Shown here piece after piece: positions 17,866-25,207 of a stretch of DNA of 64,000 bases. Under the pieces are notes generated by a model. It searched no databases. It saw only the letters and a list, made by a program, of their open reading frames with translations, and was not told where the DNA came from. Numbering within the stretch: the first letter of the stretch is position 1; each line of letters opens with the position of its first letter. This DNA comes from Microbacterium kyungheense (GTDB lineage Bacteria > Actinomycetota > Actinomycetes > Actinomycetales > Microbacteriaceae), in assembly GCF_006783905.1 (NCBI RefSeq), contig NZ_VFPE01000001.1:186001-250000 (forward strand), written 5' to 3'. A program made the translations under genes and the position numbers.

Positions 17866-18533
17866 CCACCCCTCAGCTCAGCGAGGCCGTCGATGTCGTC
17901 GACGAGCTCGTCGGCGTTCGCGCCGGCGACCCGCTCGACGCCCTGCGGCGCCGGCGTCCGGTGACGCGCGACCAGCTGCAGGCGAGCTACGACGCGCTGT
18001 TCTCCCCGCTCGACGACGCCGCGTTCCCCCTCGACGAGCGGGCGCTCGTCGCCGCGTTCGCGACGCGCTCGACCGCCGACGACGCCACCGCCGCGTACTA
18101 CGCCGACACGGCCGCGCGTGCGGATGCCCGCCGCACCGAGATCGTCCTGGCCGAGGCATCCACCTCCGCCACGGCGGGGCCGTTCGGCGCGTACCGCGAA
18201 GACGGCCTCGTCGCAGAGAGCGCCGACGGCCGCCGGTACGAGCCCGGCATCGCCGCCCGCGACGCGCTCGGCGAGCGGCTCACCGCGGCGCTCGCGCACG
18301 CGCACCTGCTCACCTTCCGGCCGAGGGAGGCGGATGCCGCCGCCCAGCGTCGCCTCGTCGAGGCCGGGTGGAGCGCCGACGGCATCGTGACGCTGTCTCA
18401 GCTGGTGTCGTTCCTCGCCTTCCAGCAGCGCGTGGCGGCGGGGCTGCGCGCGCTCGGCGCGTCCGTCACCGCCCACCCACCGGCCGTCGAGCCCGCCGAG
18501 ACGTCCGCAAAGATCGAGGAGGTCCCGGCATGA
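17862..18533 (+). CDS. CMD domain protein, Avi_7170-like
   Basis: This 223-residue protein resembles the carboxymuconolactone-decarboxylase-like family that accompanies these monooxygenases (TIGR04029 type). It is helical, with VDELVGVRAGDPLDALRRRR near the N-terminus and the conserved C-terminal DGIVTLSQLVSFLAFQQRV helix. It has no cysteine at all, so it cannot do the CxxC redox chemistry of AhpD. It may be a structural partner of the next protein. The ATG at 17862 overlaps the monooxygenase stop. Confidence 0.82.
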   Translation: MTTPQLSEAVDVVDELVGVRAGDPLDALRRRRPVTRDQLQASYDALFSPLDDAAFPLDERALVAAFATRSTADDATAAYYADTAARADARRTEIVLAEASTSATAGPFGAYREDGLVAESADGRRYEPGIAARDALGERLTAALAHAHLLTFRPREADAAAQRRLVEAGWSADGIVTLSQLVSFLAFQQRVAAGLRALGASVTAHPPAVEPAETSAKIEEVPA

Positions 18534-19156
18534 CCGGCACCACGACCGAAGACGTCGTCCTGAGCCACGACGCCCGGCACCCGCACGCGTTCACGCGCGC
18601 CGACGTGGGCTGGCTCCCGTGGCTCGAGCCGCTCCCTGTCGACGACCTCACCGAGCGGCACTACGAAGGACTGGTCGACCGGGCCCGCGCCTCGAGCGAC
18701 TACTTCCGCCTGCTCGTGCGCGACCCCGAGATCCTGCGGGCGCGCACGCTCGTCGACAAGGACATCTTCTACAACACCTCAGAGGGGCTGCCGCGGGCAG
18801 AGCGCGAGCTCGCTGCCGCCGCCGCATCGCGGGTCAACGGATGCGTCTTCTGCGCGTCCGTGCACGCGCGGTTCGCCGCGCACTTCTCGAAGACGCCGGA
18901 ACTCGTCGACCGCCTGCTCGACGAGGGCATCGACGCCGACCTCGGCGAGCGGTGGAACGCCATCGTGGCGGCCGCGGCGGCCCTCACCGCGACGCCGCTC
19001 GCGTTCGACGAGACCCACGTCGCGCGGCTGCGTGCGGTGGGCCTCGACGACCTCGAGATCGCGGACGTCGTCCACGGTGCCGCGTTCTTCAACTGGGCGA
19101 ACCGCCTGATGCTCTCGATCGGGCGACCGGTCGCGCCCCCGGAGGACGCGTCGTGA
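18530..19156 (+). CDS. Alkylhydroperoxidase-domain protein, Avi_7169-like
   Basis: This 208-residue AhpD-fold protein has the catalytic motif GCVFCASVH with Cys105, Cys108 and His112, as expected for a thiol peroxidase. The N-terminal extension (HAFTRADVGWLPWLEPLP) and the C-terminal NWANRLMLSIG segment match the TIGR04030-type family. It may remove peroxides made by uncoupled flavin monooxygenase turnover; that is inferred from the neighbours. It overlaps the genes on both sides. Confidence 0.87.
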   Translation: MTGTTTEDVVLSHDARHPHAFTRADVGWLPWLEPLPVDDLTERHYEGLVDRARASSDYFRLLVRDPEILRARTLVDKDIFYNTSEGLPRAERELAAAAASRVNGCVFCASVHARFAAHFSKTPELVDRLLDEGIDADLGERWNAIVAAAAALTATPLAFDETHVARLRAVGLDDLEIADVVHGAAFFNWANRLMLSIGRPVAPPEDAS

Positions 19157-19809
19157 GCGCCGTCGAGCTCGCCGCCGCCACGGCCGCGGGCGTCGCCGCG
19201 ACGCGCGGCGCGGCATCCACCTCTGGCACCGGCGCGCCGCGGCCGCTGCGGGTAGTCGGGGTATCGGGCTCGCTGCAGGAGCCGAGCCGCACGACGGCGC
19301 TGGTGCGGACGATCCTCGCCGCTGTCGCCGAACGCGTCGCCGCCGAGACCGAGCTGGTCGAGGTCGCCGCCCTCGGCCCCGGGTTCGCGGGCGCGCTGCG
19401 CCGCGAGGACGTCGCGCCCGAGGTCGAGCGGGCGCTGCGCGCGATCGAGTCCGCCGACCTGCTGGTCGTCGCGAGCCCCGTCTACCGCGCGTCGTTCACC
19501 GGGCTGTTCAAGCACCTGTTCGACTTCGTGGGCCAGTACGACCTCGTCGGCACGCCGGTGCTCCTCGCGGCGACGGGCGGAGGCGAGCGGCACGCGCTGA
19601 TCATCGAGCACCAGCTGCGGCCGCTGTTCGGCTTCTTCCAGGCCCTGACGCTGCCGATCGGCGTCTACGCGTCCAACAGCGACTTCACCGACTACGGCCT
19701 GAGCTCGCCCGAGGTGGCCCGCCGCGTCGTGCAGGCCGTCGACCGGTCGCTGCCCCTCGTCGAGCAGGCGGCGCTCGTGCGCCGTTCGGAGTACGTCGCG
19801 ACCTGGTGA
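19153..19809 (+). CDS. NAD(P)H-dependent FMN reductase (MsuE-like)
   Basis: This 218-residue flavodoxin-fold enzyme supplies reduced FMN to two-component monooxygenases. After a 30-residue Ala-rich N-terminus it has the FMN phosphate loop GVSGSLQEPSRT and the conserved VVASPVYRASFTGLFKHLFD segment, then TPVLLAATGGGERHALI, all typical of the MsuE/SsuE group. It starts at GTG 19153, overlapping the AhpD gene as GTGA, and is the last gene of the operon. Both monooxygenases (9962 and 16801) are plausible clients. Confidence 0.9.
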   Translation: MSAVELAAATAAGVAATRGAASTSGTGAPRPLRVVGVSGSLQEPSRTTALVRTILAAVAERVAAETELVEVAALGPGFAGALRREDVAPEVERALRAIESADLLVVASPVYRASFTGLFKHLFDFVGQYDLVGTPVLLAATGGGERHALIIEHQLRPLFGFFQALTLPIGVYASNSDFTDYGLSSPEVARRVVQAVDRSLPLVEQAALVRRSEYVATW

Positions 19810-19853
19810 GGCCGGGTGGTCTCGTGCACCTCCCTCCGGTGATCCCGTGCCCC

Positions 19854-19920
19854 TCCGGTGACTTGGCGTATACGTACAGACACGCCCGCGTGTCGCGTGC
19901 ACATACGCCAAGTCACGGAG
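19854..19920. repeat. Palindromic repeat, likely terminator after the operon
   Basis: GTGACTTGGCGTAT (19858-19871) pairs exactly with ATACGCCAAGTCAC (19903-19916), and the flanks CTCCG/CGGAG extend the stem. The centre carries ACACGCCCGCGTGT-like sequence. A related palindrome lies at 56569-56625, with the shared parts TGACTTG and GACACGCC. There is no T-run, so it is either a Rho-independent-like hairpin or a REP-type element. Confidence 0.7.
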
Positions 19921-19985
19921 AGTGGGGGCGGCGGAAGAACGGCGGGGGTCCGTCATGAAATGGCGCCGTGGGCGTCTTGCCTGGT

Positions 19986-20450
19986 GTGAGCTTCGATGTC
20001 ACCCCCGCCCGCCGCGGCACCGGCGGCTCGCCGTTCCTCTCTGCGGCCGCGGCCGCCAGGCTCGCCGGGCTGACGCCGGCCACCCTCACCCGTCGGCTCG
20101 CGAACGGCGACCTTCCCGGCTACCGGTTCGGGCGGCGCTGGTTCGTGCCTGAGGCGGAGTTCCGCCGGCAGCTGCGCCGGCGCGCATGGATGGTGCGGGA
20201 GGATGCCGGGCCCGCCGTCATCCGCGAACTCACCCGCAGCCTGCCGGCGTTCCTCACCGCGGACGACCTGGAGCGGTTCTTCGGCGTGCGGCGCACGCTG
20301 CTGGCCGACGTCCTGCGGATGCCGTCGTTCTCGGGCCGCGGCGGCGGCACCACGATCGCCGTGCTCGAGCGCACGCTGCAGGGCGCCCGCAACGCCTGCA
20401 CCCCGTGCGTGGCCGACGCGGTGGCCCACGGCGTGCGCGGCGCCGCGTGA
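19986..20450 (+). CDS. Helix-turn-helix (excisionase-type) DNA-binding protein
   Basis: This protein of about 154 residues has an N-terminal winged-helix domain of the MerR/excisionase kind (FLSAAAAARLAGLTPATLTR, then GDLPGYRFGRRWFVPEAEF). The second half (VIRELTRSLPAFLTADDLER, FFGVRRTLLADVLRM) looks like another small helical domain. CTPC near the C-terminus has two cysteines that could sense redox or bind metal. It lies just upstream of the cysteine-responsive leader and shares no operon overlap. The start is uncertain: GTG 19968 and GTG 19986 are both in frame, neither with a clear ribosome site. A regulator of nearby sulfur genes is possible but not shown. Confidence 0.6.
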   Translation: MSFDVTPARRGTGGSPFLSAAAAARLAGLTPATLTRRLANGDLPGYRFGRRWFVPEAEFRRQLRRRAWMVREDAGPAVIRELTRSLPAFLTADDLERFFGVRRTLLADVLRMPSFSGRGGGTTIAVLERTLQGARNACTPCVADAVAHGVRGAA

Positions 20451-20500
20451 CGCCGGATTGCGACCGGCCTCTGTACCTCGCCACGGTCTCTGTCTAGACT
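20442..20500 (+). promoter_or_regulatory. Promoter region of the transsulfuration operon
   Basis: TAGACT at 20495-20500 is a good -10, 7 bases before the GTG of the leader peptide, which predicts a leaderless transcript. TGACGCCGGATTGCGA (20448-20463) upstream resembles the repeats at 9017 and 9037. The 14-mer GCCGCGTGACGCCG occurs at both 20442 and 9011. Confidence 0.55.
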
Positions 20501-20507
20501 GACGCAC

Positions 20508-20543
20508 GTGTTGACCTGTCGGTGTTGTCGCCCCTGCTGTTGA
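20508..20543 (+). CDS. Cysteine-rich leader peptide (attenuator uORF), 11 residues
   Basis: GTG TTG ACC TGT CGG TGT TGT CGC CCC TGC TGT TGA encodes MLTCRCCRPCC, with five cysteines in eleven residues. It starts 7 bases after a -10 element, so it is probably leaderless. Cysteine-rich leaderless uORFs of this kind control sulfur genes by cysteine-dependent attenuation in mycobacteria. Here it sits 79 bases upstream of cystathionine beta-synthase. Ribosome slowing at Cys codons when Cys-tRNA is short would change the downstream RNA fold. The reading is direct; the mechanism is inferred. Confidence 0.85.
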   Translation: MLTCRCCRPCC

Positions 20544-20622
20544 AGCCTCCGCTTCACGCAGACCTTCGCGACCCCTGACAACCTCCGCGCGCGTGCGCGC
20601 GGCGACACCTGAGGATCCTCAC
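20544..20622 (+). promoter_or_regulatory. Attenuator leader between the uORF and cystathionine beta-synthase
   Basis: The leader has a hairpin GAAGC-CTCC-GCTTC (20542-20555) that overlaps the uORF stop, and a 7-bp GC hairpin (20585-20602, loop CGTG). The ribosome site GAGG (20611-20614) lies inside the palindrome GAGGATCCTC. Two CCTCC tracts (20546-20550 and 20582-20586) could mask the GAGG. No T-run follows, which favours control of translation over termination. Confidence 0.55.
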
Positions 20623-21618
20623 GTGCGTTACGCCCAGAGCGTCGCCGACCTCGTCGGCAACACCCCCCTCGTCCAGCTCACCCGCGTCACCGACGGCATC
20701 GCGGCCACGGTGCTCGCCAAGGTCGAGTACTTCAACCCCGGCGGATCTGCGAAGGACCGCATCGCCGCCCGGATCATCGACGCCGCCGAGCGCGACGGCC
20801 TGCTGCGGCCGGGTGGGACCATCGTCGAGCCGACGAGCGGCAACACCGGCGTCGGGCTCGCGCTGGTCGCCATCCAGCGGGGCTACCGGATGGTGTTCGT
20901 CGTGCCTGACAAGTTCGCCGGCGCCAAGGTCGACGTGCTCAAGGCCTACGGCGCCGAGGTGGTCGAGACCCCCACGAGCGTGCCGCCGGAGGACCCGCGG
21001 TCCTACTACAGCGTCGCCGACCGGCTGGTGCGCGAGATCCCTGGGGCGTTCATGCCGAACCAGTTCGCGAATCCGAACGGGCCCCGCAGCCATTACGAGA
21101 CGACCGGTCCCGAGATCTGGCGCGACACCGACGGGCGCGTGACGCACTTCGTCGCGGGCATCGGCACCGGCGGGACGATCAGCGGCACCGGCAGGTACCT
21201 GCACGACGTGTCGGACGGCGTCGTCCGTGTCGTCGGCGCCGACCCGGAGGGCTCGATCTACTCGGGCGGCCCGCTGCACGGCTACCTCGTCGAAGGCGTG
21301 GGCGAGGACTTCCTGCCCGACAGCTACGACCCCTCGGTCCCTGACGAGATCCACCGCATCCCCGATGCCGAGTCGTTCGCCATGACGCGGCGGCTCGCCC
21401 GCGAGGAAGGGCTGCTCGTCGGCGGCTCCAGCGGCATGGCCGTCGTCGCCGCGCTGCGCGCCGCGCGCGACCTCCCCGCGTCTGCCGTCGTCGTCGTGCT
21501 GCTGCCCGACCACGGCCGGGGGTACCTGAGCCGGTTCTACGACGACGACTGGCTGCGCGACCACGGTTTCGACGTCGCCGGCCCCGAGGCATCCACCCAC
21601 GAAGGAGCACCCGCATGA
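20623..21618 (+). CDS. cbs: Cystathionine beta-synthase (no CBS domains)
   Basis: This 331-residue PLP enzyme would condense serine (or acetylserine) with homocysteine to cystathionine, in the cytoplasm. It begins VRYAQSVADLVGNTPLVQL and has the PLP lysine in NPGGSAKDRIA (Lys44), the substrate loop PTSGNTGVGLALVA and the phosphate-binding GIGTGGTISGTGRYL. It lacks C-terminal Bateman domains. Cysteine synthases look similar, but pairing with the gene at 21615 and the EPEGS-like DPEGSIYSGG segment favour CBS. GTG 20623 has GAGG 8 bases upstream. It overlaps the next gene by ATGA. Confidence 0.87.
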   Translation: MRYAQSVADLVGNTPLVQLTRVTDGIAATVLAKVEYFNPGGSAKDRIAARIIDAAERDGLLRPGGTIVEPTSGNTGVGLALVAIQRGYRMVFVVPDKFAGAKVDVLKAYGAEVVETPTSVPPEDPRSYYSVADRLVREIPGAFMPNQFANPNGPRSHYETTGPEIWRDTDGRVTHFVAGIGTGGTISGTGRYLHDVSDGVVRVVGADPEGSIYSGGPLHGYLVEGVGEDFLPDSYDPSVPDEIHRIPDAESFAMTRRLAREEGLLVGGSSGMAVVAALRAARDLPASAVVVVLLPDHGRGYLSRFYDDDWLRDHGFDVAGPEASTHEGAPA

Positions 21619-22775
21619 CCGAGCCCACCGCCGACTCCGGCTTCGAGACCCGCGCTGTGCATGCCGGGCAGGCGTTCGACTCCACGACCGGCGCGGTGAT
21701 CCCGCCCGTCCACTTCTCGACCACGTATGCCCAGGACGGCATCGGCGGACTGCGCGAGGGGTACGAGTACGGACGCAGCGGCAATCCGACCCGCACCGCG
21801 CTCGAGACCCAGCTGGCCGCACTCGAAGGAGGCGCCCACGCCCTGTCGTTCGCCTCGGGCCTCGCCGCCGAGGATGCCCTGCTGCGCGCGGCGCTGAAGC
21901 CCGGCGACGAGGTGCTGCTCGGCAACGACGTGTACGGCGGCACGTACCGGCTCATCGCGCGCGTGCTCGGCGCGTGGGGCGTCAGCGTGCGAGTGGTCGA
22001 CATGAGCGACCTCGACGCCGTGCGCGCAGCGCTCGAAGAGCGACCCGCGCGCATCGTGTGGGTCGAGACCCCCAGCAACCCCCTGCTGCGCATCACCGAC
22101 ATCGCCGGTCTCGCACGCCTCGGCCACGATGCGGGCGCGCTCGTCGTGGTCGACAACACCTTCGCGTCGCCCGCGCTGCAGCAGCCGTTGGCGCTCGGCG
22201 CCGACGTCGTCGTGCACTCCACGACCAAGTACCTGGGAGGTCACTCCGACGTCGTGGGCGGAGCCCTCGTGCTGAACGACGACGCGCTGTACGGCGAGGC
22301 GAAGTTCCTGCAGTTCGCGGTCGGCGCCGTGTCGGGCCCGCTCGACGCGTGGCTCACGACGCGCGGCATCAAGACGCTGGCCCTGCGTATGCAGCGGCAC
22401 AGCGAGAACGCGCAGGAGGTGGCATCCTTCCTGTCCTCTCACGGTTCGGTCGCGCACGTGTACTACCCGGGGCTGCCGGCGCATCCCGGCCATGAGCTCG
22501 CGGCGCGGCAGATGAGCGGCTTCGGGGGAATCGTCTCGGTGGCGCTCGCCGACGCCGCGTCGGCACGCCGCTTCGCGGAGTCCACGCGGCTGTTCCAGCT
22601 CGCCGAGTCGCTGGGCGGGGTCGAGTCGCTCATGAACTACCCCGACGAGATGACGCACGCCTCGGTGCGCGGCACCGAGCTCGCCGTGCCCCCGGAGGTG
22701 GTGCGCCTGTCGGTGGGCGTCGAGTCCATCGCCGACCTGCTCGCCGACCTCGACCAGGCGCTCGCGCGACGCTGA
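21615..22775 (+). CDS. Cystathionine gamma-synthase/lyase (Cys/Met metabolism PLP enzyme)
   Basis: This 386-residue enzyme of the trans-sulfuration family has AVHAGQAFDSTTGAVIPPVH at the start, the active-site tyrosine region YEYGRSGNPTR, and the PLP lysine in HSTTKYLGGHSD (Lys205). The C-terminal part has SLGGVESLMNYPDEMTHAS and PEVVRLSVGVE. Sequence alone cannot settle gamma-synthase versus gamma-lyase. Following cystathionine beta-synthase and under a cysteine-rich leader, the lyase direction (cystathionine to cysteine, reverse transsulfuration) is the better guess; annotation pipelines often call it MetB. Confidence 0.88.
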   Translation: MTEPTADSGFETRAVHAGQAFDSTTGAVIPPVHFSTTYAQDGIGGLREGYEYGRSGNPTRTALETQLAALEGGAHALSFASGLAAEDALLRAALKPGDEVLLGNDVYGGTYRLIARVLGAWGVSVRVVDMSDLDAVRAALEERPARIVWVETPSNPLLRITDIAGLARLGHDAGALVVVDNTFASPALQQPLALGADVVVHSTTKYLGGHSDVVGGALVLNDDALYGEAKFLQFAVGAVSGPLDAWLTTRGIKTLALRMQRHSENAQEVASFLSSHGSVAHVYYPGLPAHPGHELAARQMSGFGGIVSVALADAASARRFAESTRLFQLAESLGGVESLMNYPDEMTHASVRGTELAVPPEVVRLSVGVESIADLLADLDQALARR

Positions 22776-22813
22776 GCCGAACGCGCCGCGGAGGGGAAAC
22801 ATAGGCTCGGGGC

Positions 22814-23307
22814 ATGACCGCGAGCACTCCCTCTCTGCTGGCGCAGCCGCTGCGCATCGGTGCCGTCACGGTGCCGAACCGCCTCATGCAGACGGCCCAC
22901 TCGAAGCAGTACTCCGACCGCGTCGAGTCCGATCGCGAGACGGCGTACTACGTGCGGCGGGCGCGCGGCGGCTGCGGGCTGTTCGTCGCGGGCAACCACT
23001 TCGTGCACCCGACGGGGTCGATCAGAGGCTTCGAGGACGCGTACCGTCCCGAGGGGGTGGCCGCGTCGAAGCGGATGACGGATGCCGTGCACGAGGCCGG
23101 CGCGAAGGTCTTCGTGCAGCTCAACCACCACGGCGCGCAGGCACAGGCCGACGGCCCGGACGGTCCTCGTGCGGTCTATGCCCCTTCGCGCATACTCTCG
23201 CCGTCACGATCGGCGACACCTTCGCACCCCGCACGATCGACGCCGCGATCTTCGAAGCCGTCGAGCTCGCGTACGACGTCGCGGGGCTGGCCGTGCTGCG
23301 CGGCTGA
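22814..23307 (+). pseudogene. NADH:flavin oxidoreductase (OYE family) with large internal deletion
   Basis: The N-terminal ~120 residues are a clear OYE/2,4-dienoyl-CoA reductase barrel start: LLAQPLRIGAVTVPNRL, ARGGCGLFVAGN, AGAKVFVQLNHHGAQAQ. Around 23190 the homology jumps, with a frame change, to the C-terminal end of the same kind of protein (IGDTFAPRTIDAAIFEAVEL, then AYDVAGLAVLRG and TGA at 23305). About 450-500 residues of a typical member are missing. The -10 TAGGCT (22802-22807) still sits 6 bases before the ATG. The gene is decayed and cannot make an enzyme. Confidence 0.8.
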
Positions 23308-23320
23308 TGGCCGCGGCATC

Positions 23321-23473
23321 CGCGGTGCGGGTGCAGGTGGCGGCGCGGGCACAGGTGGCGGCGCGGGCACAGGTGGCGTCCGCGGGCACAGGTGGCGGCG
23401 CGGGCACAGGTGGCGTCCGCGGGCACAGGTGGCGGCCCACGGGCGCAGGTGGCGGCCGCGGCCGCAGGTGGCG
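23321..23473. repeat. 18-20 bp GC-rich minisatellite, about eight units
   Basis: Units of the form GCGCGGGCACAGGTGGCG are repeated head to tail about eight times, with lengths of 18-20 bases; the inner copies are nearly identical and the outer ones degenerate. Within the 340-base non-coding gap 23308-23647 this is the main feature. Reading frames across it are low-complexity artefacts. It follows directly on the gutted OYE gene. Confidence 0.85.
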
Positions 23474-23484
23474 GCATCCACGAT

Positions 23485-23641
23485 CCGCTCACGCGGATCC
23501 GCGTAAGCGGACGGACGACGCGACACGCCGTGCACCGGTGCCGGCGACCCGGCGCGTCGCGCGGGAGGTCCGCACGTGCGGATCCGATTCTGCGCACGTG
23601 CGCGGCCGCCGCCGTCCCCGCGCGGGCGCGGTGGCTACGCT
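23485..23641 (+). promoter_or_regulatory. Palindromes and promoter upstream of the SLC13 permease
   Basis: CCGCTCACGCGGA/TCCGCGTAAGCGG (23485-23510) is a 26-base palindrome with one mismatch. TCCGCACGTGCGGA (23569-23582) and GCGCACGTGCGC (23592-23603) share CGCACGTGCG and have centres 22 bases apart. The -10 TACGCT (23636-23641) stands 6 bases before GTG 23648. The paired CACGTG sites are candidate operators. Confidence 0.5.
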
Positions 23642-23647
23642 GGGCGC

Positions 23648-25207
23648 GTGGACCCCGTCGCCGCAACGCTCGTCATCCTGGTCCTCGCGGTCATCGCGTT
23701 CGTGAGCAACCGCGTGCCGATCGGCGTGGTCGCGATCGGCGTGGCGCTGGCCCTGTTCTTCACGGGCGTGCTGACGCTGCCCGAGGCGCTGGCGGGGTTC
23801 GGCGATCCGACGACGCTGTTCATCGCGGCGCTGTTCGTCGTGAGCGAGGCGCTCGACGCCACCGGCATCACGGCCTGGGCCGGGCAGAAGGTGATCGGGC
23901 GGGCGGGCACCAAGCGCAACACGCTCATCGTCGTGATCGCCCTGCTGGTCGCCGGCCTCACCGCGCTCATCAGCATCAACGGCGCGGTCGCCGCCCTGCT
24001 TCCGCTCGTGGTGGTGGTCGCGGCGCGCGCCGGGATCGCGTCGTCGAAGCTGCTGATGCCGCTGGCGTTCGCCGCCTCGGCGGGATCGCTCCTGCTGCTG
24101 ACCGGCACGCCCGTGAACATCATCGTGTCGGAGTTCGCCGCCGGTGCCGGTGGACGCGAGTTCGGGTTCTTCGAGTTCGCGCTCGTCGGCATCCCGATCC
24201 TCGTCGGCACCGTGGCGATCCTGCTGCTGGGCGACCGGCTGCTGCCCGAGCGGCGCGGGGCGCTCATGCCGAAAGACCTCATGCGCCACGCCCGCCTGCT
24301 GCGCAGCCAGTACTCGCTGTCGGTCGACACGGGCACGCTCCTCGGGCCCGTCAACGGCGTGACCGAGGTCGTCGTCGCGCCGCGCTCGCCGCTCATCGGC
24401 AAGACCCTGTGTGCCGGCATGTCCACCAAGAAGGGCGATCTCGTCGTGCTCGCCGCCCGTCGCGGCGACGAGCACCTCAAGGGCGCCGAGTTCGTCGTGC
24501 AGGCCGGCGACGCGCTGCTGCTGCAGGGCGCGTGGGACGACCTCGCGCGCGGCGCCAGCGAGCCGGGGGTGCTGGCCGTCGACGACCCCTCGCTGCTGCG
24601 GCGGTCGGTGCCGCTCGGGCGCGGCGCCAAGCGTGCCGCCGTGATCCTCGTCGCGATGGTCGTGCTGCTGGCGACCGGGCTCGTGCCGCCGGCGGTCGCC
24701 GCGCTGCTGGCCGCGTGCGCGCTCGTGCTCACGCGCACCGTCACCGCCACGCAGGCGTTCCACTCCATCTCGTGGACCACGATCGTGCTGATCGCCGGCA
24801 TGATCCCGCTGTCGACCGCGTTCATCTCGACCGGCACCGCCGACATGATCGCGGGATGGATGCTGTCAGCCCTCGGCGACGCCGGCCCCCAGGTCGCTCT
24901 GCTCGCCCTGTGCGGCCTGACCGTGCTGCTGGGCCAGCTCATCAGCAACATGGCGACCGTGCTCATCGTGGCGCCGATCGCGATCTCGGTCTCGCAGGCG
25001 ATGGACGTCTCGGTGCAGCCGTTCATGATGGCGCTCACCGTCGCCGGCGCGGCGTCCTTCCTGACGCCCATCGCGACGCCGGCGAACCTCATGGTCATGG
25101 ACCCGGCGGGCTACCGGTTCGGCGACTACTGGAAGCTCGGGCTGCCGCTCGTGATCTTCTTCCTGCTGATGGCCGTGTACTACGTGCCGCTCCTCTGGCC
25201 GTTCTGA
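23648..25207 (+). CDS. SLC13-family permease with RCK_C domain
   Basis: This 519-residue membrane carrier has about 11-12 membrane segments in two halves. Family marks include the loop SGSLLLLTGTPVNIIV (AASAGSLLLL, TGTPVNIIVSE) in the first half and ASFLTPIATPANLMVMDPAG in the second. Between them, residues 220-300, is a TrkA-C/RCK_C domain (VAPRSPLIGKTL, DLVVLAARRGDE, GDALLLQG). Members carry sulfate, citrate or other anions with Na+ or H+. The nearby sulfur genes make sulfate possible, but nothing in the sequence proves it. GTG 23648 is probably leaderless. Confidence 0.88.
   Translation: MDPVAATLVILVLAVIAFVSNRVPIGVVAIGVALALFFTGVLTLPEALAGFGDPTTLFIAALFVVSEALDATGITAWAGQKVIGRAGTKRNTLIVVIALLVAGLTALISINGAVAALLPLVVVVAARAGIASSKLLMPLAFAASAGSLLLLTGTPVNIIVSEFAAGAGGREFGFFEFALVGIPILVGTVAILLLGDRLLPERRGALMPKDLMRHARLLRSQYSLSVDTGTLLGPVNGVTEVVVAPRSPLIGKTLCAGMSTKKGDLVVLAARRGDEHLKGAEFVVQAGDALLLQGAWDDLARGASEPGVLAVDDPSLLRRSVPLGRGAKRAAVILVAMVVLLATGLVPPAVAALLAACALVLTRTVTATQAFHSISWTTIVLIAGMIPLSTAFISTGTADMIAGWMLSALGDAGPQVALLALCGLTVLLGQLISNMATVLIVAPIAISVSQAMDVSVQPFMMALTVAGAASFLTPIATPANLMVMDPAGYRFGDYWKLGLPLVIFFLLMAVYYVPLLWPF

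Follow-up and report, generated by a model that had tools for sequence, protein, structure and literature searches.

What controls the genes of reverse transsulfuration in Microbacterium? The question is raised by a locus in a stretch of 64,000 nucleotides of Microbacterium kyungheense DNA, referred to here as the window, in which a very short upstream open reading frame (uORF) with five cysteine codons precedes a gene for a cystathionine beta-synthase-like enzyme (cbs). Sequence comparison makes it very probable that this uORF belongs to a real cysteine-sensing leader of cbs. The segment from 20495 to 20622 is best explained as the promoter and 5' leader of the Microbacterium cbs-metB operon, an explanation which, taken as a whole, is considered reasonably probable. 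The features of the locus needed at this point are as follows.

20495-20500, + strand: -10 hexamer TAGACT, read from the sequence; transcript start predicted at 20508
20508-20543, + strand: putative leaderless uORF of 11 sense codons, MLTCRCCRPCC and stop; GTG start at 20508, TGA stop at 20541-20543
20623-21618, + strand: cbs, cystathionine beta-synthase-like, 331 aa, catalytic part only; best NCBIfam match TIGR01137
21615-22775, + strand: metB-like cystathionine gamma-synthase/lyase; NF005871, 637 bits (cut-off 513); 4-base overlap with cbs

The leader and its operon in the window

A preliminary description of the locus had placed an 11-codon frame 7 bases past TAGACT and 79 bases ahead of cbs, and this proved exact: seven bases separate the hexamer from the GTG of the uORF, and 79 bases (20544-20622) lie between the uORF stop and the GTG of cbs at 20623. 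The codons of the frame are GTG TTG ACC TGT CGG TGT TGT CGC CCC TGC TGT TGA, so that its cysteines form two Cys-Cys pairs and one single Cys, without a run of three. The window uORF is a lengthened form with nine extra bases 5' of the stop, and the same or nearly the same form is found in other Microbacterium leaders (L008, L009, L011-L015 and L017).

The product of cbs matches TIGR01137 with 484.7 bits, below the cut-off of 510.25, and covers profile positions 2-320 of 457. Among Pfam domains it contains PALP only, without a CBS domain, whereas the long-form relatives L099 and L112 from other genera contain both. The gamma-synthase/lyase-like gene overlaps cbs by 4 bases, and the pair fits reverse transsulfuration. 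Beyond the pair, an old-yellow-enzyme-like ORF (22814-23506) aligns with a model of 645 positions over its positions 2-129 only, continues as repetitive sequence and looks truncated.

Five or more cysteines in 10 codons would arise with P = 1.5e-9 per site at the cysteine frequency (0.57%) of 39 window genes, which were predicted by a simple GC3 rule. When short ORFs were defined by a start at most 25 codons from the stop, this uORF alone, across both strands of the 64-kb window, had three or more Cys among the final six codons; 11 had two or more (8 on the + strand, 3 on the - strand). The earlier statement that five cysteines in eleven codons exceed chance is thus borne out by both the probability and the uniqueness of the frame.

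Conservation within Microbacterium

Among 99 genomes of the genus, 75 contained a cbs-like match that was clearly better than those of the general cysteine synthases; 74 of these genes were read upstream, one (G030) being dropped at a contig edge. A GTG-initiated uORF with a TCRCCR-like core precedes 55 of the 74; it has 8-11 codons and ends 67-100 nt 5' of cbs. These 55 leaders were chosen by the core motif, with variants added by eye. Start and stop are in frame in all 55, and changes in length are of whole codons. The final six codons hold three or more Cys in 49 of 55 and two or more in all 55; these regions gave 0 and 2 when reverse-complemented. The positions of the cysteines vary, and one may be lost (to CTT, CGT or CCT). 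Arg is the final residue in 44 of the 55, as it is in 17 of 22 otherwise differing leaders of the family; the window variant ends in Cys, not Arg. The remaining 19 of the 74 genes lack the leader and are long open frames (at least 465 aa) with other N-termini; a weak frame ahead of one of them (L067) looks like chance.

Of the first 30 leader-bearing Microbacterium cbs genes, 28 encode fewer than 380 aa, which leaves no room for a CBS domain. Since the leader-bearing L063 (L345) encodes 460 aa, the association of leader and short enzyme is not strict, and leaders in other genera also precede long CBS enzymes. On a tree of 90 CBS proteins, leaders occur with short and long enzymes, and four label groups need 14 changes where the minimum is 3; the leader was thus not gained one-to-one as the CBS domain was lost. 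In L346 (G034) the cbs frame breaks after 254 aa and its tail looks out of frame, reflecting either a broken gene or a sequencing error; the leader, MSLTCRCRR, is present.

Promoter geometry and predicted leaderless start

A TANNNT hexamer ends 6 nt (43 leaders) or 7 nt (12 leaders) 5' of the GTG in all 55 Microbacterium leaders. Five control windows placed further upstream contained none in any of the 55, and the whole 90 nt held two others. A Shine-Dalgarno (SD)-like word is present ahead of the uORF in 1 of 55 leaders vs 53 of 55 ahead of cbs. The hexamer geometry and the near-absence of SD words together support a leaderless, translated leader well, and the earlier proposal of a leaderless uORF holds at this level. 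The transcript is most likely to start at the GTG of the uORF, as predicted from this spacing, and to be translated without a Shine-Dalgarno sequence. Matches to the -35 element are poor (at least 4 of 6 positions in 16 of 55), and a sigma-70 scan that required a -35 element as well returned no promoter for the window leader.

Leaders beyond the genus and specificity for cbs

The family Microbacteriaceae, of which Leifsonia xyli is also a member, was represented by 199 genomes, 142 of which contained cbs at E <= 1e-110, distributed over 67 of 85 genera. Upstream regions were read for 46 of the 141 hits outside the genome under study, a sample that is partly best scoring and partly short or divergent, and not random; three rows (L116, L121 and L132) were dropped as the gene start was not covered. 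A Cys-tailed uORF precedes 22 of these 46 genes, 14 of them with at least three Cys, and is absent from 24. In the reverse complement 2 of 46 passed and 0 had at least three Cys; shuffles expect 0.75 and 0. The comparative search called for in the preliminary description, for conserved Cys codons upstream of cbs in the family, therefore found them ahead of 55 of 74 genes in the genus and 22 of 46 elsewhere in the family. The peptides differ (for example MSSSFTCCRCR, MFLNCCCR, MNISRSCCRR, MINTRLCCCCL and MITRLCCCCR), and some carry CCC or CCCC where the Microbacterium core is CRCCR, so the place and the principle are kept more than the sequence.

Reading was extended to 59 of the 81 hits from outside the family, after L163 and L165 had been dropped as cut loci. 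Seven of the 59 pass, four of them with at least three Cys, and 52 are without such a frame (reverse complement 2 and 0; shuffles 0.85 and 0). Three of the four richer leaders belong to one genus (MVLCTRLCCC or near) and one to a genus with small genomes (MIIRCCCCR). The peptide MLTCRCRP, ahead of a 341-aa CBS in another family, closely resembles the Microbacterium leader. A -10 hexamer lies 5-8 nt ahead of an in-frame start in 22 of the 29 leaders from outside the genus; L177 and L181, two of the seven without it, are probably chance frames. Four poly-Cys leaders from other genera (L127, L128, L129 and L130) have TANNNT further from the GTG than usual and ATC directly before the GTG. Their transcripts may start at that ATC, which would then serve either as a leader of 3 nt or as an unusual start codon.

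The association with cbs is also seen in wider searches. The core motif occurred in 90 stretches among 84,980 species genomes, and cbs lies within 600 nt in 67 of the 80 listed. The other 13 of the 80 listed carry names outside the family, for example Pontibacter, Halomonas, Mycolicibacterium and Nocardia. One stretch (L229, JASDDH010000003.1), titled Planococcus sp. APC 4015, has a Microbacterium-type leader followed by cbs, and its organism name is probably wrong. When a covariance model was run against the 199 family genomes, with 24 candidates per genome scored, at least four genomes matched: the own genome, G034, G197 and G192. The match in G197 (L095) is the cbs leader of another genus, MTFTCRCCR. 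Two matches inside coding ORFs, that in G192 (L096) and a second one in the own genome (L097), were taken as false.

Within the own genome, the core pattern had 12 matches, only the cbs one being a short ORF with a nearby start. For the pattern Cys-Cys-Arg-stop, 30 of 47 matches were read, and no start within 25 codons was found in the short frames shown; two of the 30 had starts 30 and 36 codons upstream. For five other PALP genes of this genome, the 400 nt preceding the domain match were free of Cys-tailed frames, and a 14-kb sulfate assimilation stretch contains one such frame, which lacks a -10 hexamer. Around two PAPS_reduct and five strong Cys_Met_Meta_PP loci (two weak matches being left out), no Cys-tailed frame with a -10 hexamer was found other than the cbs leader itself.

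Choice of cysteine codon

The cysteine codons of the 55 Microbacterium leaders are TGT and TGC in the ratio 164:11, vs 15:75 in the 39 window genes. Leaders from elsewhere in the family have 56:6 and the four order leaders 12:1 (last six codons, best frame). The Microbacterium leaders are mutually related, so that a Fisher test exaggerates the contrast; nonetheless, the same preference for TGT is seen in other genera. Slower decoding of UGU by a wobble pair could be a cause of this preference, and so could base pairing within the leader (P1, below).

Predicted RNA fold of the leader

When the leaders were folded, a layout of four pairings recurred. P1 joins the cysteine core to a downstream block (CUGUCG-NUG-UUGUCG with CGACGA-CCC-CGACAG; in the window GUCGC/GCGAC and UGUCGG/CUGACA), P2 is a hairpin at the stop codon and P3 a hairpin before the SD sequence, and P0 joins the opening codons of the uORF to the SD region. 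For P0, leaders that begin with GUGUUG use CRACAC just 5' of the SD sequence (13 of 14), and in many others CUGA or CCUG pairs with UCAG or CAGG of the SD sequence itself. In folds with a shorter 3' end P1-P3 recur and the uORF start finds another partner. In the window the elements are placed as follows.

20508-20513, + strand: P0 5' strand, GUGUUG, the start of the uORF; partner CGACAC at 20603-20608; from folds and swap tests
20517-20531, + strand: P1 5' strand, the Cys core of the uORF, UGUCGGUGUUGUCGC; from folds; nearly invariant, without covariation support
20537-20561, + strand: P2 hairpin around the uORF stop, core UGAAGC-CUCC-GCUUCA at 20541-20556; from fold and swap test
20568-20580, + strand: P1 3' strand, GCGACCCCUGACA; from folds; conserved non-coding block in the 55-leader alignment A1
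20585-20602, + strand: P3, a G+C-rich hairpin, CCGCGCGCGUGCGCGCGG, without a U-tract; from folds; swap test weak
20603-20608, + strand: P0 3' strand, CGACAC, just 5' of the SD sequence; from folds; CRACAC in 13 of 14 leaders starting with GUGUUG
20611-20620, + strand: palindrome GAGGATCCTC containing the SD sequence GAGG (20611-20614); read directly

Complete leaders gave better folds than their dinucleotide-shuffled versions, with a mean z of -3.37 and P<0.05 for 48 of 55, and the P2 and P3 regions alone beat their shuffles in 30 and 26 of 55. Set against shuffled partners, P0 and P1 were each better at P<0.05 in 9 of 55 leaders. In swap tests, in which strands were paired with partners from other leaders, the own P0 partners of the 55 leaders beat the swapped ones in the two windows nearest cbs (0/5000 each) and were not better in three windows further upstream. 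Among 24 leaders less than 75% alike, P2 was strongly upheld (z -5.5, 0/5000; control 288/5000), P0 gave 32 and 40 of 5000 (control 1849/5000), P3 was weak (224/5000) and P1 had no covariation (742/5000). Among eight leaders less than 65% alike P2 holds (2/5000) and P0 is weaker (119 and 363 of 5000). By these comparisons, the stop-codon hairpin P2 covaries strongly and the pairing P0 between the uORF and the ribosome-binding site (RBS) moderately.

Per-sequence folds and swap permutations were used after alignment-based tests. RNAalifold on alignment A1 yielded three trivial pairs at the cbs start, apparently because MAFFT misaligned the variable hairpins. A pair count on alignment A3 was mostly unsupportive, 166 of 500 shuffles scoring as high for cells paired and 51 of 500 for the covariation score; for cells changed on both sides, 2 of 500 did so. 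A simulated stall at the first Cys codon raised the mean predicted openness of the SD sequence only from 0.33 to 0.43, and a ribosome at the stop gave 0.38. In the window's own leader the simulated stall left it unchanged (0.48 to 0.50); here the SD sequence also lies in a small local hairpin.

The preliminary description had placed the ribosome site of cbs inside a palindrome and opposite two complementary CCTCC tracts. Both are indeed present in the window, the tracts at 20546-20550 and 20582-20586. Masking through them finds little comparative support and was set aside, since the palindrome occurs in 2 of 55 leaders (L007 and L008) and two CCTCC tracts in 3 of 55 (at least one in 22 of 55). 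GAGG serves as the SD sequence in 8 of 55 leaders. The modelled P0-P3 layout is proposed instead as the better conserved fold.

No intrinsic terminator with a U-run was found between 20300 and 20800 of the window, and a trp-type attenuator was accordingly not recognized there. One leader of 55 has UUUU among its final 40 nt, and 5 of 55 have it somewhere between the uORF stop and cbs. A search of Rfam with positions 18000-24000 gave no match at E<=1.

Proposed mechanism and its alternatives

The leader probably turns cbs on under cysteine shortage. In the proposed mechanism, the Cys codons of the uORF, mostly TGT, would sense the supply of charged Cys-tRNA. With ample cysteine, ribosomes would clear the uORF and the RNA would fold into P0, P1, P2 and P3, so that cbs would be poorly translated. 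Under shortage, the ribosome would stall at the Cys codons and occupy the 5' strands of P0 and P1, and the ribosome site of cbs would open, allowing cysteine to be made from homocysteine and serine. The promoter-uORF geometry, the cysteine frame and P2 are backed by comparison, and P0 moderately so; from these we infer the transcript start, translation of the uORF, stalling, the direction of control and translational rather than transcriptional control. That occlusion of the ribosome site is the output of the leader is judged slightly better than an even choice.

The same cysteine leader might instead act on transcription, with the ribosome on the uORF deciding whether Rho ends transcription within the C-rich spacer that leads up to cbs. 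Control of this kind was suggested in 2005 for actinobacterial Cys leaders (PMC1262725), the spacer looks C-rich by eye, and no intrinsic terminator was found in the segment 20300-20800. However, stalling would be expected to expose the C-rich 3' strand of P1 and so to increase termination in starvation, which is the wrong direction, and the pairing of P0 near the RBS points to translation; Rho-dependent control is regarded as rather unlikely. Another reading extends the sensor beyond the supply of Cys-tRNA, to wobble decoding of UGU or to a Cys-Arg nascent chain at the stop, with P2 taking part in the output. It is prompted by the marked bias towards TGT and by the Arg that so often ends leaders otherwise unlike in sequence, and is unlikely enough to be called speculative. 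Action of the nascent peptide itself, in which a conserved T-C-R-C-C-R-stop would arrest the ribosome at or near termination on a signal from cysteine or another thiol, would account for the frequent final Arg in genus and family and for the conservation of the Thr and Arg positions as well. Yet the same bases are needed for P1 in the genus, the cysteine positions vary and one can be lost, and the window variant ends in Cys, all of which makes peptide arrest quite improbable.

Two further explanations would deny the frame a role in sensing. A structured RNA or DNA operator with an incidental reading frame would be in keeping with the near-invariant bases, which include third positions of the core Cys codons, and with the strong folding, but length changes by whole codons, the in-frame start and stop in 55 of 55, the different Cys-tailed leaders at the same place in other genera and the lack of an Rfam match at E<=1 render it highly improbable. 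Nothing except the shortness of the frame speaks for a chance Cys-rich sequence without function; being contradicted by the conservation, the chance controls and the promoter geometry, it has a practically negligible claim. A cysteine-sensing leader that occludes the ribosome site of cbs is therefore preferred.

Relation to known systems

Should this reading be correct, leaderless cysteine-sensing leaders would extend from the mycobacteria to Microbacterium, to its family and to a gene of reverse transsulfuration. In many of these bacteria cbs would then probably respond to cysteine; leaders were seen ahead of short as well as long CBS enzymes. The 55 natural variants, with their conserved core, covarying stop-codon hairpin and sharp codon preference, would lend themselves to testing how such a leader works.

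The kind of leader is already known, from a prediction of 2005, the uORFs of mycobacteria and a proposed attenuator of cysS in Rhodobacterales. Leader peptides with runs of Cys codons, lacking terminators, were predicted for cys operons in Mycobacterium and P. acnes as well as for cbs in Bifidobacterium longum (Seliverstov et al., 2005; PMC1262725). Leifsonia xyli was included in the genome set of that study, and its section on cysteine names no leader there (PMC1262725). The novelty claimed in the preliminary description is accordingly reduced: the family is indeed another than that of the mycobacteria, but a Cys leader of cbs had been predicted for B. longum (PMC1262725). No earlier report of such a leader in Microbacterium was found in the open-licence literature. 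What seems new is the set preceding cbs in Microbacterium and its family, together with the strict spacing of promoter and uORF, the bias towards TGT and a stop-codon hairpin that covaries.

The leaders predicted in 2005 resemble those described here in being short ORFs with Cys codons near the stop, ahead of cbs or cys genes and without a terminator. They differ in that the text of that paper does not use the word leaderless and reports no conserved terminator hairpins found (PMC1262725). Leaderless Cys-rich uORFs have been described before cysA2, Rv0485 and nirA (Shell et al., 2015; PMC4633059), and cysteine-responsive attenuation by uORFs was reported in M. smegmatis (Canestrari et al., 2020, as cited in PMC9031893, PMC9094748 and PMC13236596). 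In Rhodobacterales, the motif uORFC-8-2 before cysS was proposed to be a Cys attenuator (PMC8632094). Like the Microbacterium leader, it comprises a uORF with conserved Cys codons in an RNA stem, for which ribosome-mediated attenuation is proposed. In contrast, as described there, it has an AUG start, the U-run of an intrinsic terminator and predominantly UGC codons, and it belongs to cysS in alphaproteobacteria (PMC8632094).

The closest comparison is with the leaderless polycysteine uORFs of mycobacteria. The leaderless geometry and the position upstream of cysteine or sulfur genes (cbs and metB-like) that mark the mycobacterial type are both seen in the sequence studied here. Both kinds are short ORFs at the 5' end of an operon for cysteine metabolism, with Cys codons near the stop, and translational attenuation, reported for the mycobacterial uORFs, is proposed here. 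Unlike the mycobacterial uORFs, as far as these are described in the sources cited, the leaders reported here are known from sequence alone; they belong to another family, precede cbs, have an interrupted TCRCCR core with mostly TGT codons, and are proposed to fold through P0-P2.
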